Shown: one piece after another, positions 1,116 to 15,337 of the stretch
How the letters are laid out: each line of letters begins with the position of its first letter
Numbering within the stretch: the stretch's first letter is position 1
DNA from: a virus
Direction: 5' to 3' (one strand)
Length of the DNA stretch: 20,074 bases
Virus record (IMG/VR): IMGVR_UViG_3300046559_000077
Location: 1 to 20,074 of that record
Made by a program: the position numbers and the translations under genes
The notes under the pieces: generated by a model
Told to the model about the DNA's origin: nothing
Databases searched by the model: none
The model's input: only the letters and a program-made list of their open reading frames with translations

Positions 1116-1153
1116 GCTGCGTTCACTTACTAGACTGATTGAAAAGGAAAATT

Positions 1154-1177
1154 GCGGGCATTCATAGGAGTGCCCGC
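1154..1177 (+). promoter_or_regulatory. Hairpin with the ribosome binding site in its loop
   Basis: GCGGGCA (1154-1160) and TGCCCGC (1171-1177) form a perfect 7-bp stem. The 10-base loop contains AGGAG (1166-1170), the only good Shine-Dalgarno sequence for the tail fibre gene, whose TTG start lies at 1179. The stem is followed by TTT, so it might also act as a weak terminator after the upstream virion gene. Both readings are inference. Confidence 0.5.
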
Positions 1178-1178
1178 T

Positions 1179-3113
1179 TTGACCATTTCCAGCACAACAC
1201 GAAAAGCCGGCCCTTTCATCGGTAACGGGGTAACCACTGTTTTCCCGTTCGGCTTCAAGATCTTCGCGAAGACCGACGTTGAGCTGCAACTGATCGATTC
1301 GAACGGTACTTCGACGACGCTCACGCTCGACTCTGATTACTCGGTCACACTGAACCCGAATCAGACCGACGCGCCGGGCGGTACGATCACCTACCCGATC
1401 ACCGGCTCGGCATTACCGTCGCCTTACAAGCTGGTCGTGCTCGGCGATCTGCCGATCGAACAGCAGACGGACATCACGAATAGCGGGGGGTTTTACCCCG
1501 AGATCATCGAAGACATGGTGGATCGCGCGACGATCCAGATCCAGCAGGTCGCCGAAGTCGTCAGCCGGGCGATCGTCGTCGGCGCGTCTGACACATCGAC
1601 CGCAGAGCTACCGTCGAGCGCCGCACGCGCGAATACGATCCTTGGCTTCGATGCGCTCGGTAATCTCGAAACCCTGCCGATCACGGCAAGTGTCGGCGCC
1701 GGTGACATGCGCACCGACACCTTCACCAGCGGAATCGACTTTACGTCGGGCGTGTCTAACTCGCTCGTCTTGTCGCGCGCGCCGGGTTCGCTCGCCAACA
1801 TCGAAGTATTTTTCGACGCAGCGTACCAAGGGCCGGAAAACTTTCAGTCGCTCACCGGCGCCGTGCTCACGTTCACCGCCGCGATCCCTGTCGGCGTCCA
1901 ACGAGTGTACGTGCGCGGCGGCTCGGCGCTTTCGATCTATCTGCCGTCGACCGGCAGCGTGTTCGACGCATCGGTCGCCGCCGGCACGAAGCTGCTCAAC
2001 CGAATCAATTTCATCGCGAACGCGAAAGACGCACCGTTTAACGCCATCGGTGACGGCGTGTCGAATGACACGATCGCGTTCCAAGCGATCTGTAACTCGA
2101 CGGCCGCGGGCCAGGTGCTCGACGTCGACGTGCCGGCGGGTTCGTACTATCTCGCGACGAACGTCGCCGCGGGCGCCGGCACCGTCAACTGGCGCTTCGC
2201 GAGCGGCGCGTCGCTCACAGGGCCGGGCAAGCTCGCGCACCACGCCGCGACGATGGCGTACAACTCGACGCCGAACGTCGGCAAGCGGCATAGCATCTGG
2301 CACGGCACCGACGCGAACCCGACGACCGACGGCGTGACGGCGACGTCGTACACGCAGCGCGTCGATCAGTCGGTTGTCGGCGACGATGCCGCGCACCTGA
2401 TCTTCCTGAAGTACAACGCGCTCAAGCGCGCGGCCGGCGGTACGGGCTGGCTCACCACGAATTACAACTATCTCGAAGACCATTCGACGTCGGGCGCCGC
2501 GCAGTCGGTCGCGTTGTCGGGCTCGGCGCACGGTATCACCGCGGGTGCTATTTGGGGTTTGTATTCGGAAGCATGGGCGCATAACCACAACGTTACCGCG
2601 ACCTCATTCGAGCACGACACGTTCAATTATTCCGGTAGCGATTACGTATACAACGACGCGTTTCCGACGACGGCGCCGTTCACTTGCGGCGACTGGAATA
2701 TCTCTTTCGGGCCGAATAAAAACACGTTCGCGAGCGGCATCGCGAGCGGCAGCGTCGCGAATATGTGGCGCACCGGCATCTACATGAAGACGTTCTCGAT
2801 CGATCACATCGGGATCGATATCCAGGCGCAACCGGCGACGCTGATCAATTTTAAGTACGGCGCGTCGACCGACGGCACCGGCATCACGCCGGGTGGCATC
2901 GGGCTTGACGTCGGACCGCAAGCCAGTGCGGCTTACGGCGCGGCTGCGAACCAGTGCGCGATTCACATGCGCGATCAACGGCTCGGCTTCGGCAGCTTCT
3001 CGTTTTTCCAATTCAACGCTGCGCAAAACAAGATCGAACTTTGGGTTTACAACGGCTCGACGTTTGACCGCCGCGGCTATTTCGATCTGACCGCAGCGGA
3101 CCACGCATTCTAA
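1179..3113 (+). CDS. Tail fibre / tail spike protein
   Basis: This 644-residue protein probably forms the receptor-binding fibre or spike. I chose the TTG at 1179 because AGGAG at 1166-1170 has correct spacing; the upstream in-frame TTG (1152) and GTG (1170) have no ribosome site. Residues 1-140 look like a virion-attachment domain of the T7 gp17 type: a 'GNGVTTVFPFGFKIF' start, a strand-rich section, then a helical stretch ending in EDMVDRATIQIQQVAEVV. Near residues 285-330 the sequence NAIGDGVSNDTIAFQAI is typical of the start of a pectate-lyase-like beta helix. The last 300 residues are rich in Gly, Ser, Thr and aromatics and resemble nothing I know, as expected for a fast-changing host-recognition region. 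No chaperone domain is obvious. It lies between the giant virion protein and the lysis genes. Confidence 0.8.
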   Translation: MTISSTTRKAGPFIGNGVTTVFPFGFKIFAKTDVELQLIDSNGTSTTLTLDSDYSVTLNPNQTDAPGGTITYPITGSALPSPYKLVVLGDLPIEQQTDITNSGGFYPEIIEDMVDRATIQIQQVAEVVSRAIVVGASDTSTAELPSSAARANTILGFDALGNLETLPITASVGAGDMRTDTFTSGIDFTSGVSNSLVLSRAPGSLANIEVFFDAAYQGPENFQSLTGAVLTFTAAIPVGVQRVYVRGGSALSIYLPSTGSVFDASVAAGTKLLNRINFIANAKDAPFNAIGDGVSNDTIAFQAICNSTAAGQVLDVDVPAGSYYLATNVAAGAGTVNWRFASGASLTGPGKLAHHAATMAYNSTPNVGKRHSIWHGTDANPTTDGVTATSYTQRVDQSVVGDDAAHLIFLKYNALKRAAGGTGWLTTNYNYLEDHSTSGAAQSVALSGSAHGITAGAIWGLYSEAWAHNHNVTATSFEHDTFNYSGSDYVYNDAFPTTAPFTCGDWNISFGPNKNTFASGIASGSVANMWRTGIYMKTFSIDHIGIDIQAQPATLINFKYGASTDGTGITPGGIGLDVGPQASAAYGAAANQCAIHMRDQRLGFGSFSFFQFNAAQNKIELWVYNGSTFDRRGYFDLTAADHAF

Positions 3114-3425: not shown

Positions 3426-3758
3426 ATGAGTGACGCACAGAAACGCCACTGGCTCGACACGTCCATCAACCTGCAGACGCTCGCGACCGGTGTCATCGGC
3501 GCGGCCGTCGCGCTTGTCGTCGTGTACATCGGGCTGCTCGGCCGGGTGTCGTCACTTGAGATTCACGACATCGAGCAGGAAAAACACTTCGACCGTATCG
3601 AGCGAACGATCGACCAGCAGCGCAGCGACATCAACGCGCAGCTCAAGAGCATCGGTTCGGATGTGAAAGACACGAACACGAAAGTCGACAAGCTCAACGA
3701 TCAATTGCTACTGAACACTGCCGGCAACACGCCGGGGATACGGAGATGGGCGAAATGA
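3426..3758 (+). CDS. Membrane-anchored coiled-coil protein in the lysis cassette
   Basis: This 110-residue protein has one strong membrane helix at about residues 17-40 (ATGVIGAAVALVVVYIGLL) followed by a charged coiled coil (about 45-95). The start ATG has a GGGGC-type upstream sequence only, but the reading frame is clean. Its stop overlaps the start of the holin-like gene by ATGA, so the two are translationally coupled. A single N-terminal helix plus a coiled coil would suit a holin partner, an antiholin or another lysis regulator; that is inferred from position. It might also be a virion protein. Confidence 0.7.
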   Translation: MSDAQKRHWLDTSINLQTLATGVIGAAVALVVVYIGLLGRVSSLEIHDIEQEKHFDRIERTIDQQRSDINAQLKSIGSDVKDTNTKVDKLNDQLLLNTAGNTPGIRRWAK

Positions 3759-4012
3759 AAATCACACTCGCGGACAACTGGCGGTCGCTGCACAAGCGCG
3801 GCACGGTGATTCTCGGTCTTGTATTCACGGCGCTCACCGGCTTCGGGCCGTCAATCGTGCAGGCATGGAACTTCATTCCGGCCGACATGAAAGCCGCATT
3901 GCCGGCCGGTGTCGCGCGCTACGCAACGATGGCCGCGTTCGCGCTGATGGTGCTGGTCCGATATACGTCGGTTCAAAAGACCGACCCTGACAAGGCCGGG
4001 CCTACACAGTGA
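3755..4012 (+). CDS. Holin-like membrane protein
   Basis: This 85-residue protein has two predicted membrane helices, about residues 15-38 and 59-77, with short charged ends, the layout of a two-helix holin. I chose ATG 3755 rather than ATG 3746, because GGAG at 3742-3745 is directly adjacent to 3746 but well spaced from 3755, and the 3755 start overlaps the previous stop as ATGA. Its own stop overlaps the endolysin start (GTGA). A holin would form lesions in the inner membrane that release the endolysin. The family assignment is from topology and position immediately before the endolysin; no unique motif is present. Confidence 0.7.
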   Translation: MKITLADNWRSLHKRGTVILGLVFTALTGFGPSIVQAWNFIPADMKAALPAGVARYATMAAFALMVLVRYTSVQKTDPDKAGPTQ

Positions 4013-4545
4013 CGCCGCAAACACTCGCCGCTGCGATCGGCGTCAATGTCGCGCGCACGCAGGAATGGGCCGACCCGATCACCGCGGCGATGGCACTTTG
4101 GGCGATCGACACCGACGCGCGCCAGGCTGCGTTCCTCGCGCAGATCGGGCACGAAAGCGGGCGGCTTCTGTATGTGCGCGAGTTGTGGGGGCCGACGCCC
4201 GCGCAGATCCGCTATGAAGGCCGCGCGGATCTCGGCAACACGCAGCCGGGCGACGGCAAGCGGTATCTCGGGCGGGGGCTGATTCAGATCACCGGTCGCA
4301 CGAATTACAAAGCAGTCGGCGACGCGCTCGGTGTGGATTTCATCGAGCAACCGCAGCTGCTTGAGCAGCCGGCGAACGCCGCGCTGTCGGCCGCATGGTT
4401 TTGGAACACGCACGGCTGCAACGAACTTGCAGACGTCGGCGACTTCCGGCGCATCACGCTTCGGATCAACGGTGGGATGAACGGATATGTCGACCGGCTC
4501 GCGCTGCTCGCGCTGGCGAAAGACGCTTTAACTGACAGGGGTTAG
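4009..4545 (+). CDS. Endolysin, glycoside hydrolase family 19 (chitinase-like lysozyme)
   Basis: This 178-residue enzyme should cleave the glycan strands of peptidoglycan at the end of infection. The pattern AQIGHESG at residues 44-51 carries the expected catalytic Glu49, and GKRYLGRGLIQITGRTNY further on is the conserved substrate-cleft block of phage and bacterial GH19 enzymes; LRINGGMNGYVDR is the usual C-terminal block. It starts at GTG 4009, overlapping the holin stop. There is no signal peptide or N-terminal membrane anchor, so export would depend on the holin before it. The length is close to that of single-domain phage GH19 endolysins, and no separate wall-binding domain is seen. Confidence 0.93.
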   Translation: MTPQTLAAAIGVNVARTQEWADPITAAMALWAIDTDARQAAFLAQIGHESGRLLYVRELWGPTPAQIRYEGRADLGNTQPGDGKRYLGRGLIQITGRTNYKAVGDALGVDFIEQPQLLEQPANAALSAAWFWNTHGCNELADVGDFRRITLRINGGMNGYVDRLALLALAKDALTDRG

Positions 4546-4547
4546 CC

Positions 4548-4862
4548 ATGCTCGCATTGCTCGGAAGTATCTGGCCGTTTCTGGTAGCTGGCGTAGGCAT
4601 CTTATTCGGCGTGTTCGCGCATCTCAGCGCGAAGTCGACGAAGGCCGCAGCCGAACAGAAAACAGCCGAAGCGCAAACCGTCGCCGCGCAAGCGCAGACG
4701 CAAGCGGCGCAAGTGCAAGACGCCGCCGCACAAGCGAACGCAACCGCAGCACAAGCCGGCGCCGTGGCGCTAAAGGAACGTGAAAATGTTGAAACGCCTA
4801 TTGCTAGTCAGCCTAGTGGCGACGCTGCAAAGCAGTTGCTCAATGACTGGACCCGCGGCTGA
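4548..4862 (+). CDS. Rz: Inner-membrane spanin subunit (Rz-like)
   Basis: This 104-residue protein has an N-terminal membrane helix (about residues 4-25) followed by an Ala/Gln-rich coiled coil (about 28-80), the expected form of an i-spanin, which together with an outer-membrane lipoprotein fuses the two membranes in the last step of lysis. An AGGGG site precedes ATG 4548, two bases after the endolysin stop. The 3' quarter overlaps the lipoprotein gene in another frame, as many Rz/Rz1 pairs do. Spanins have little sequence conservation, so this call rests on topology, order and the overlap. Confidence 0.75.
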   Translation: MLALLGSIWPFLVAGVGILFGVFAHLSAKSTKAAAEQKTAEAQTVAAQAQTQAAQVQDAAAQANATAAQAGAVALKERENVETPIASQPSGDAAKQLLNDWTRG

Positions 4863-5043
4863 AGCACCGCCGCCCGACGTCAAGATCGTCACGCAAACCA
4901 AGATCGTCGACACCGGCTGTGATTGGGTCAAGCCGATCTATGTCAGCAAGTCGGACGTGCTCAGTGATGACACGGCCAAAGCGATCCTGGCGCACAACCT
5001 GACCGGCGCGAAGATCTGCGGCTGGAAACCCTCTGCGAAATGA
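4786..5043 (+). CDS. Rz1: Outer-membrane spanin lipoprotein (Rz1-like)
   Basis: This 85-residue protein begins with KR, a hydrophobic stretch and then the sequence LQSSC, giving a lipidated Cys near residue 18. The usual Leu at -3 of the lipobox is Gln here, so the lipobox is not ideal. A Pro-rich patch (PAAEAPPP) follows, as in Rz1 proteins. I chose ATG 4786 because AAAGGA has good spacing to it; the in-frame GTG at 4780 is too close. The first 77 bases overlap the Rz-like gene in another frame, while the rest extends beyond it, an overlapped rather than embedded arrangement. At 85 residues it is longer than many Rz1 proteins. Confidence 0.72.
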   Translation: MLKRLLLVSLVATLQSSCSMTGPAAEAPPPDVKIVTQTKIVDTGCDWVKPIYVSKSDVLSDDTAKAILAHNLTGAKICGWKPSAK

Positions 5044-5990
5044 GAAACCCCATGAAACGAATCTTTGCCGGCGCATTCGCGCTTCTTTCGTTCGCTGCGT
5101 TCGCTGCGTTCGCGGCGACAACGACGCCAGTGCAGCTTCTGAACCCGGCCGGATCGACGAGCGGGCAAGCCATCTTGTCGACGGGGCCGACGACGGCGCC
5201 GCTTTGGGGTGGTGTACCGTTGACCGGTGTCACCGGTACGCTTGCCGTCAACCACGGCGGGACCGGCGCGAGCGCGGCCGGCGGCCCGGCGCTCGACAAC
5301 ATCAGCGGCTTTGCGTCGACAGGCTTTATCAAGCGAACTGGCGCGGGTGCATATTCGTTCATCGCCGACCCGCTGCCGATCGCAAACGGCGGCACCGGGC
5401 AGACGTCGGCTGGCGCCGCGCTCACTGCGCTCGGTGGTGCGCCGCTCGCTTCGCCGACGTTCACCGGCACGGTGACGACACCGGCGCTTACGGTTTCATC
5501 CGGCGGGGTCGGCGTTACCGGCGGGCTGACGATGGCGACCGGCGCGATCACGCCCGTCTCGACCGTCGGCATTACTGGCACGCCGACGAACAACAACGCG
5601 AGCGCAGGCGCGATCGGCGAATACATCACGAATTCGACGGCGGGCACGTCGCTGTCGACGGCGACAACGGCGAACGCGACGAGCGCGAGCTTGACGGCGG
5701 GGGATTGGGATGTGTCGTGTACGCCGACGTTCGCGCCGGCAGGATCGACAGTGCCTTCGATTCTCGCGGCTGGCGTCACCACGACGTCGGCGACGCTGCC
5801 GGGTTCCAATGTGGGCGGTTATGTGCAGCTCGCCAGCAGCTTCCCGGCTGGCGCCGCTCAAGTCGTCGTGACGCCGACGGTGCGGATCAGTCTATCGAGC
5901 ACGACGACGACCTATTGCGTGGTGCAGTCGACGTTCACCGTGAGCACGATGACGGTAAACGGCTTTATCCGAGCACGCCGGGTTCGCTAG
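5040..5990 (+). CDS. Secreted tail-fibre-like protein
   Basis: This 316-residue protein starts with a classic Sec signal peptide (MKRIFAGAFALLSFAAFAAFA, counted from ATG 5052; cleavage likely after AFA) and then has phage-fibre repeats: NHGGTGASAAGG, ANGGTGQTSAGAAL and SPTFTGTVTTP. The last 130 residues (GAIGEYITNST... to the end) form a Ser/Thr-rich beta-type domain that I associate with C-terminal domains of phage fibres and similar surface proteins. The start could be ATG 5040, which overlaps the previous stop as ATGA, or ATG 5052. Part of the signal peptide is coded by a 9-base tandem repeat (TTCGCTGCG). A signal peptide on a virion fibre is odd; it may act outside the cytoplasm, for example by blocking receptors. 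Confidence 0.7.
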   Translation: MRNPMKRIFAGAFALLSFAAFAAFAATTTPVQLLNPAGSTSGQAILSTGPTTAPLWGGVPLTGVTGTLAVNHGGTGASAAGGPALDNISGFASTGFIKRTGAGAYSFIADPLPIANGGTGQTSAGAALTALGGAPLASPTFTGTVTTPALTVSSGGVGVTGGLTMATGAITPVSTVGITGTPTNNNASAGAIGEYITNSTAGTSLSTATTANATSASLTAGDWDVSCTPTFAPAGSTVPSILAAGVTTTSATLPGSNVGGYVQLASSFPAGAAQVVVTPTVRISLSSTTTTYCVVQSTFTVSTMTVNGFIRARRVR

Positions 5991-14491: not shown

Positions 14492-15337
14492 TTACTGCGC
14501 TGCTTCTACGTCGATCTGCGAGTGCACGGCCGTGAAGAAAGCGTCGGCCGCGTGCTGCAGTTGATCGGTCCACTGCACGACGTCAGCCAGCTCGCGCACC
14601 AGACCCGATTCGAGAATCGAAAGCACCTGGTGCTTTTCCTTCGCGTCGAGCGTTTCACCGGCGCCGGCCGACGGCCCGCCAGTCGGCGAACCAGTTACCG
14701 AGTCGGTGACGGCCGGCGTGATCGGATTGACCGGCGTCACGGCGTCAGCTGCGGCGGAATCGGCGATACTCGCAGGCGTAGCACTGACCGAAGGGTCGGT
14801 GCTGACATCGACGTTTCCCACGTCACCAGTGGGCGCGACATCGGCCGTACTGGCTGCAGGCGCAGCGTTTCCCGCGTCACCATCCGGTGCCGTCCCATCA
14901 TCCACGGCAGAACTGGCCGTTGACGATGCGTCGACAGAACTTGCACCAGCGCTCGTTGACGGTGAGGGCTCGACCGGGGCCACGTTTCCCGCGTCGAGCG
15001 GCGTGCCGTCTGCGTGCAAGTCGACGCCGCTAACCAATCCGGTGTCATCCGTGCCAATCGTGGAGGGAGAAGCGTCGCCACTCGTCGAACCAGCAGGCGA
15101 CGACGCTTCTACGTTTCCCGCGTCAACCGGTGCATCGCTCGGGGCCGCGGGCGCCGCTGACGACGTATCGGTTATGGATTCGGTCGTGCCAGATGTGACC
15201 GACGGCGCCGGTGCCGACACAGCGCCATCGGTCAATTCGTTTCCCGTGTCGGTCACTTCGAAATGGGGTTCGTCCGTGAAGTCTGCGGCCGGGGCTTCGA
15301 ACTGGTCGCCGGTGATCTTGCTGGTGATTTTTGCCAT
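14492..15337 (-). CDS. Low-complexity repeat protein with DAGNV-type repeats
   Basis: This 281-residue protein has three parts. Residues 1-35 look ordered (MAKITSKITGDQFEAPAADF...). Residues 36-230 are Ser/Thr/Ala/Pro/Asp-rich and disordered, with a repeated unit DAGNV/DVGNV/DTGNE coded by five in-frame copies of an ACGTTTCCCGCGTC-like sequence (plus strand 14811, 14865, 14982, 15111 and 15237). The last 50 residues (KEKHQVLSILESGLVRELADVVQW...) form amphipathic helices. ATG 15337 has GAGGAA upstream. The acidic linker with an ordered tail suggests a tethering or scaffold role; the function is unknown. The gene follows the SSB gene after a 66-base gap. Confidence 0.75.
   Translation of the reverse strand: MAKITSKITGDQFEAPAADFTDEPHFEVTDTGNELTDGAVSAPAPSVTSGTTESITDTSSAAPAAPSDAPVDAGNVEASSPAGSTSGDASPSTIGTDDTGLVSGVDLHADGTPLDAGNVAPVEPSPSTSAGASSVDASSTASSAVDDGTAPDGDAGNAAPAASTADVAPTGDVGNVDVSTDPSVSATPASIADSAAADAVTPVNPITPAVTDSVTGSPTGGPSAGAGETLDAKEKHQVLSILESGLVRELADVVQWTDQLQHAADAFFTAVHSQIDVEAAQ

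Follow-up and report, generated by a model that had tools for sequence, protein, structure and literature searches.

The window analyzed here, a virus contig of 20,074 bases, carries at positions 5040 to 5990 (+) an open reading frame (ORF) of 316 amino acids that closes the late gene cluster of its phage. Export of its protein family through the Sec pathway is well supported by the comparison of related sequences. We tentatively read the product as a late, Sec-exported, disulfide-stabilized, fiber-like binding protein that would not be an ordinary virion part and may shield receptors, a reading to which we give somewhat less than an even chance. Comparative support covers the signal peptide, the mature N terminus, the disulfide pairing, the late-operon position, and the knob fold. 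Tail-fiber-like proteins are taken for cytoplasmic virion parts, a label that automatic annotation also gives this family; if a large class of them is exported, many "tail fiber" annotations in temperate phages would mislead host-range prediction.

The fiber-like gene and its neighbors in the window

The initial annotation had described a fiber-like ORF with two characteristic repeats behind the lysis genes, and we recovered the ORF at the same position and length, the repeats (as NHGGTGAS and NGGTGQT), and holin, endolysin, and two spanin genes directly upstream. ATG 5040 shares the bases ATGA with the stop codon of the spanin gene before it. A second candidate 12 nt downstream, ATG 5052, is preceded by GAG and is the likelier start. 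Translation from ATG 5040 adds MRNP before the signal peptide MKRIFAGAFALLSFAAFAAFA (+). Since the signal peptide is kept from either start, a wrongly assigned start is an improbable explanation for the window gene, and among the family copies compared, a start downstream of the signal peptide occurs in the MTTL clade only.

Counted from ATG 5052, the protein comprises a signal peptide (residues 1 to 21), a conserved module (22 to 60), a shaft (61 to 186), and a knob (187 to 312). The Sec signal peptide of 21 residues, MKRIFAGAFALLSFAAFAAFA (5052..5114, +), was identified from the sequence, the family alignment, the −3/−1 residues, and a rule-based score; the predicted cleavage at AFA after residue 21, between AFA and ATTTP, agrees with the family alignment. 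The mature N-terminal module beginning with ATTTPVQLLNPAGSTSGQAILSTGPTTAPLW (5115..5231, +) was delimited by alignment columns that vary little or not at all (A2, A3, and A8) and by a motif scan. It leads into a shaft of fiber-type repeats (5232..5609, +; NHGGTGAS, NGGTGQT, and ALGGAPLASPTFTGTVTTP), which was read from the sequence and modeled at low confidence. The C-terminal TNF/C1q-like jelly-roll knob (5610..5987, +) ends in RARRVR and was assigned from an AlphaFold2 model, fold matches, and homology to gp47 of entry 8vbx. Its cysteines, Cys223 (5718-5720, +) and Cys289 (5916-5918, +), form the commonest cysteine pair of the family. The profile phrog_11393 ("tail fiber protein") matches the C-terminal half of the protein (residues 109 to 316; E, 1.3e-21), but over profile positions 339 to 538 of 538 only, so that the N-terminal tail-attachment domain is absent; the signal peptide and the protein's own module make up the N terminus. 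Searches of Pfam and NCBIfam returned no family for the window protein.

The late cluster runs from the phage's tail fiber through two small genes, the holin, the glycoside hydrolase 19 (GH19) endolysin, and the Rz-like and Rz1-like spanins to the exported fiber gene, which begins inside or just past the spanin stop codon. The tail fiber or spike (1152..3113, +; exact start uncertain) was recognized by phrog_1640 (tail protein; E, 3.7e-29; residues 21 to 140). It has a tail-attachment N terminus, lacks the ARRVR knob, and gave no match to the exported protein. A TTG start in this ORF yields a short, odd N terminus, MRAFIGVPALTISSTT, which fools our crude signal-peptide rule; the true start is probably further downstream. 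The holin (3746..4012, +) matched phrog_1356 (E, 7.4e-14) and PF25612 (DUF7940; E, 1.9e-14), and the GH19-type endolysin (4009..4545, +) matched phrog_181 (E, 1.5e-67) and PF00182 (E, 9e-11). Two Rz-like spanin profiles identified the inner spanin (4548..4862, +; phrog_1026; E, 4.4e-6) and the Rz1-like outer spanin (4780..5043, +; phrog_1275; E, 6.3e-25), whose embedded gene overlaps the candidate start at 5040. The contig also encodes an integrase, a repressor, a DNA polymerase, and a helicase, and the phage is therefore probably temperate. Its nearest relatives among bacterial genomes were found in Caballeronia, Paraburkholderia, and Cupriavidus. On the opposite strand, an ORF of 281 amino acids (14492-15337, −) is rich in Ala, Ser, Thr, Asp, and Pro and has no PHROG match.

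Signal peptides and paired cysteines across the family

We assembled 90 members of the family from the best 80 of 138 loci in an IMG/VR scan (alignment A3, in which the confirmation step used the signal peptide), 8 loci in a scan of GTDB genomes, the window, and Xanthomonas phage PBR31, and grouped them into 58 clusters at 90% identity. They extend across Burkholderiaceae prophages and a Xanthomonas phage. The N-terminal module used as a query matched only 2 of 50,697 phage records, and a plasmid search returned no match.

A signal-peptide rule of our own (charge, hydrophobic core, −3/−1 residues, and no acidic residue) passed all 58 representatives, which include the best 80 of 138 IMG/VR loci, versus 11 of 246 neighboring ORFs of at least 150 amino acids that were called by a simple chaining script and not by a gene finder. 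A chance signal peptide is ruled out by this comparison. Under the rule, a basic n-region, a hydrophobic core, and small −3 and −1 residues were found in all 58 clusters, and the AFA site initially proposed for the window protein fits this alignment. With the IMG/VR share limited to the same best 80 of 138 loci, residue −1 was G, A, or S in every cluster (37, 18, and 3, respectively) and residue −3 was A, S, V, or T in 57 of 58 (30, 13, 8, and 6, with one L). The signal peptides are 17 to 22 residues long, followed at +1 by A (51 clusters), T (6), or Q (1). None of the 58 clusters had Cys at +1 (a lipobox) or RR within the first 14 residues (a twin-arginine motif), so that the signal looks like a signal peptidase I type rather than a lipoprotein or Tat signal. 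At one locus (L005:2100-3041), from a 99% identical phage, one FAA repeat (9 bases) is missing inside the signal peptide; the loss is in frame, and a working −3/−1 site remains.

The mature start, ATTTPVQLLNPAGSTSGQ, is nearly invariant across the family. Because the A3 scan had used the signal peptide for confirmation, we rescanned with a DNA pattern of the mature motif only (QLLNPxG, then A/S-G-Q). This unbiased scan reported 109 stretches, from which 108 copies were read, 81 of them distinct, and a signal peptide was present in 75 of the 81. The six exceptions comprise four copies from one signal-less clade, one copy with a signal-like stretch and no standard start (L203), and one cut at a contig end (L216). 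Proteins of the signal-less clade (L146, L158, L205, L224, and relatives) start with M-TTLVPPQLLNPSGSTAGQ, which is the mature N terminus itself, behind an AAGG site; the mature fiber therefore exists with and without export. Their genes lie directly behind the tailspike gene, and in L158 small genes and then the large terminase gene follow downstream.

Folding in the periplasm leads to the expectation that cysteines occur in pairs. Mature proteins contained an even number of cysteines, zero included, in 48 of 56 cases. For the knob, we compared parity in 87 aligned proteins below 75% identity with 5000 shuffles of the alignment columns, leaving out three proteins open at the 5′ end, 12 with other C termini, and one with a mis-picked start (L259, a duplicate of L125). 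Signal-bearing knobs (n = 62) had an even number in 37 cases, an odd number in 10, and no cysteine in 15; the shuffles gave a mean of 29.8 odd knobs, and 0 of 5000 were as low as 10. Among signal-less knobs, 3 were even, 12 were odd, and 10 lacked cysteine (shuffled mean, 10.5 odd), and the two groups differed in parity (Fisher P, 7e-5). Restricting the set to 17 proteins below 45% identity left the pattern in place: 13 knobs were even and 1 was odd, and 0 of 3000 shuffles were as low. Neighboring ORFs of at least 200 amino acids with cysteine, which are mutually related, served as a control and were even in 51 cases and odd in 83.

At least 10 different position pairs occur in the knob, including 223-289, 209-302, 221-308, 289-304, 225-240, and 225-304, so the cysteine pairs arose many times. 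Arithmetically, the pairs 289-304 and 291-302 share a constant sum, as do 225-304 and 221-308, which is what pairs bridging antiparallel strands should show. Signal-less proteins have single cysteines at these positions (for example, 302 without 209); within the signal-less clade, members with a RARRIR knob have one unpaired cysteine, and those with another C terminus have two. An N-terminal pair in the motif PSC...GFxC was complete in 19 proteins, half present in 3, and absent from 34; in the residue listing, two of those three proteins have both cysteines in a different context. Judged from these alignments, the cysteine state of the ARRVR-type knob tracks the signal peptide, and the knob pairs, Cys223-Cys289 in the window, are predicted to form disulfides. 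Two independent lines of comparison, conservation of the signal peptidase I site and pairing of the cysteines, thus support the export to the periplasm that had been proposed for the window protein. Taken together, the signal peptide in 75 of 81 copies, the −3/−1 conservation, and the pairing suggest that the export signal is ancestral to the family and apparently used.

Knob fold and genomic setting

A structure prediction of the C-terminal region, suggested in the initial annotation, gave a confident jelly-roll knob. In the AlphaFold2 monomer, pLDDT is 90 to 98 over nearly all of residues 190 to 310 and mostly below 60 over residues 61 to 180, so that the knob alone is modeled confidently. 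Its fold is a TNF/C1q-like jelly roll. The model matched a cyanophage A4 tail protein (9k09; Z, 10.0), Bacillus ExsF/BxpB (Z, 9.1 to 9.7), the BC2L-C lectin domain (Z, 9.1), the phi812 spike (Z, 9.0), and the short tail fiber of cyanophage A-1(L) (Z, 8.7); the matches to the TNF/C1q-like lectins BC2L-C and PLTL had Z of 8.2 to 9.1 over 113 to 116 residues, and structure matches in BFVD were mostly unnamed phage proteins. By sequence, the knob is homologous to residues 396 to 534 of the protein that the solved structure 8vbx lists as "Tail fiber (gp47)" (E, 8.8e-11 with a single sequence and 1e-41 with a profile), so it is a genuine virion fiber tip in other phages. The fiber-type C-terminal domain recognized at first reading is borne out by this homology and by the phrog_11393 match. 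Across the family, 46 of 56 full-length representatives end in an ARRVR-type knob and 10 in other C termini; shaft and knob are modular.

Searching each genome against itself by BLAST gave matches in 2 of the 58 loci, and only one (L047) involves the C-terminal domain, at 30% identity; the loci reach at most about 8 kb upstream, and some fibers may lie outside. With C-terminal likeness in 1 of 58 loci over this range, a knob copied from the phage's own fiber, which the simplest form of the proposed receptor blocking on debris would predict, is not supported. This count is not decisive against a decoy, since one sugar may be bound by different folds. No positive selection on the knob was detected in two pairwise comparisons, dN being below dS wherever both could be estimated; the knob dS had reached saturation in the comparison with L079.

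In 53 of 58 loci (IMG/VR share, best 80 of 138), the gene starts between −8 and +15 nt from the upstream stop, and in 14 of 58 it overlaps the upstream gene by 4 nt. The upstream ORF has at least 430 amino acids in 19 loci and fewer than 260 in 39. PHROG comparisons covering 58 of 58 first upstream genes, 52 of the 56 available second upstream genes, and 91 of 91 downstream genes gave, respectively, tail spike or tail protein, holin, and Rz-like families; endolysins; and endolysins, holins, and a few O-acetyltransferases, with tallies that count members per family and cannot be summed over categories. Depending on the phage, the gene is thus placed behind the tail spike or behind the lysis genes. 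Portals of the P22 type were found in 14 of 30 records, PBR31 included, an HK97-type portal in 1 of 30, and T7/BPP-1-type connectors in 9 of 29; the records may be fragments. A tyrosine integrase was present in 21 of 29. Since the same N-terminal module is combined with three or more unrelated kinds of portal, a single conserved dock on the virion is unlikely. From the late-operon position, the differing portals, and the integrases, as far as sequences can tell, this is a late gene of mostly temperate podophages that is not tied to one virion architecture.

Possible roles of the exported protein and related systems

In the mechanism that we favor, the gene would be expressed late, co-transcribed and probably translationally coupled with lysis or tail genes. 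The protein would be exported via Sec, cut by signal peptidase I after AFA, and folded in the oxidizing periplasm, where the Cys223-Cys289 pair would form a disulfide, into a short and probably trimeric fiber-like molecule. Its TNF/C1q-like knob may bind a host surface glycan or receptor, either in the periplasm or, once the outer membrane has been opened by the spanins, in the medium, and occupied receptors on the dying cell, on debris, and on neighboring cells would then keep progeny or competing phages from adsorbing. Several points speak against this reading. A conserved mature N-terminal module would be expected for virion docking, and virion use is plausible for the signal-less relatives behind the tailspike gene. 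Knob and own fiber share sequence in only 1 of 58 loci, so that a receptor common to both would be conjecture. Cysteine is absent from 15 of the 62 exported knobs and odd in number in 10, and the two pairwise comparisons gave no sign of positive selection on the knob.

The main rival, which we consider unlikely, is a virion fiber matured in the periplasm: exported, oxidized, and trimerized there, it would join virions at lysis through the mature N-terminal module, docking on the tail spike or tail once holin and spanins admit virions. Conserved N-terminal module and variable C terminus follow the usual logic of fibers that dock by their N termini, and the gene lies directly after the tail fiber or spike gene in BcepC6B and PBR31, as the signal-less relatives lie right behind the tailspike gene. 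Against this rival, the portals that accompany the module fall into at least three unrelated classes, the tail proteins encoded ahead of it belong to many PHROG families, and no tailed phage is known to add a fiber outside the cytoplasm. An ordinary fiber assembled in the cytoplasm, with a hydrophobic N terminus unused for export, would agree with the annotations of the BcepC6B and PBR31 proteins and with the knob being a virion fiber tip in other phages; it leaves unexplained both the strict −3/−1 rule in 58 clusters and a cysteine pairing confined to signal-bearing proteins, and we regard it as improbable.

A Lom-like adhesin on the lysogen surface, altering adhesion or excluding superinfection to the benefit of the host, is likewise unlikely in our judgment, somewhat more so than the periplasm-matured fiber. 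It would suit the tyrosine integrase in 21 of 29 records, the surface-modification genes at the same site (Acyl_transf_3 behind L083 and L119, and O-acetyltransferase families), and the precedent of Lom, which sits between tail spike and fiber genes and is expressed in lysogens (PMC12309495). Nevertheless, the gene abuts its late upstream neighbor in 53 of 58 loci, which leaves little room for an intergenic promoter of its own and so speaks against lysogenic expression. That the exported knob binds lipopolysaccharide from inside and aids the spanins at the outer membrane seems a poor prospect; holin, endolysin, and spanin genes adjoin in the window and its relatives, but elsewhere the gene precedes the lysis genes and follows tail spikes, and the window has complete spanins and a protein in which no membrane-active feature was seen. 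Finally, capture of a fiber gene behind a signal peptide had been raised at the outset. Taken as a recent accident in this phage only, it would be allowed by the modularity of shaft and knob, but in that form it is highly improbable and indeed refuted: signal peptide and mature module are common to 90 members in 58 clusters, which extend over prophages of Burkholderiaceae and a phage of Xanthomonas, and the carriers have at least three unrelated portal types.

Receptor shielding can be set within a broader reading to which we likewise give a little less than an even chance. Many temperate podophages, together with one or more phages of a different type, would carry a second, exported set of fibers, disulfide-locked in the periplasm, released at lysis, and serving as decoys or added to virions outside the cytoplasm, with cysteines that mark export and one small clade that lost or never had the signal and retains the fiber in the cytoplasm. 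If cysteine pairs were gained repeatedly only in signal-bearing copies, these fibers would really fold outside the cytoplasm. Dozens of related phages share the export signal and the paired cysteines, and the release of fiber-like binding proteins distinct from ordinary tail components thus seems to be common to many phages. If this is true, soluble receptor-binding fibers released at lysis would be a testable phage strategy, and cysteine parity would offer a cheap sequence test for phage proteins that fold outside the cytoplasm.

Two named phages, BcepC6B and PBR31, allow a direct test. Their proteins gp19 and orf035 are full homologues with the same signal peptide, mature module, and knob, encoded between the tail fiber or spike and holin genes; the gene thus precedes the lysis genes there, whereas it follows them in the window. 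They are annotated as "tail fiber protein" (BcepC6B gp19) and "putative structural protein" (PBR31 orf035), and the signal peptides go unmentioned in the GenBank rows and in section 3.3 of PMC10975493. In the parts of the literature consulted, no proteomics of the exported protein was found for either phage. The fibers of 8vbx (gp47) and of Phimunavirus and Drulisvirus (CB5 and KpV74) have a homologous C-terminal knob and GGTG repeats; they differ from the window protein in their tail-attachment N terminus, in lacking a signal peptide, and in having at most one knob cysteine. With the lectins BC2L-C (N-terminal domain) and PLTL and the Bacillus exosporium proteins ExsF/BclA, the knob shares its jelly-roll fold (Z, 7.5 to 9.7; rmsd, about 2.5 to 3.4 Å; identity, about 10 to 14%), a fold-level likeness from which the ligand cannot be inferred.

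Among receptor-blocking proteins, Llp of phage T5 is phage-made, exported, and disulfide-bearing, is encoded beside the receptor-binding protein gene, and blocks the receptor (PMC9586334). The window protein, as predicted, shares with T5 Llp and the Cor superinfection-exclusion proteins a phage origin, export, and disulfides; Llp, however, is a small lipoprotein, whereas this family lacks a lipobox (58 of 58 clusters) and is fiber-like with a lectin-like knob. Lambda Lom, an outer-membrane protein with a signal peptide (PMC12309495), is a beta-barrel, in contrast to the soluble, fiber-like window protein. Knobs of this fold and exported receptor-blocking phage proteins are thus known already, the latter from T5 Llp (PMC9586334). 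No description of an exported fiber-like phage protein was found in the literature searched (mostly open-access, preprints excluded), within which the predicted Sec-exported, disulfide-paired fiber-like family appears to be new.

Beyond the family itself, the same knob is linked to a signal peptide through two or more other N-terminal modules, one of the QFxPGQxLTAxxLNxxF type and one of the TYPSP/TYPTP type (L258, L279, L289, L293, L295, L297, L300, and L306; L012, L267, L325, L326, and L330); exported fiber-like proteins are thus broader than the window family. Genes of the surface-modification type were found directly downstream of the exported fiber: two Acyl_transf_3 acyltransferase genes (L083:7984-9009 and L119:8099-9202) and, at L122:7907-9013 and L127:9135-10910, genes for a methyltransferase and for a DUF7657 protein. 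Together with the O-acetyltransferase families, they suggest that host-surface genes may collect at this site. PBR31 has another exported protein in this place: its gp40 (L002:10203-10850, −) is a signal-peptide-bearing SGNH esterase behind the lysis genes (PMC10975493).
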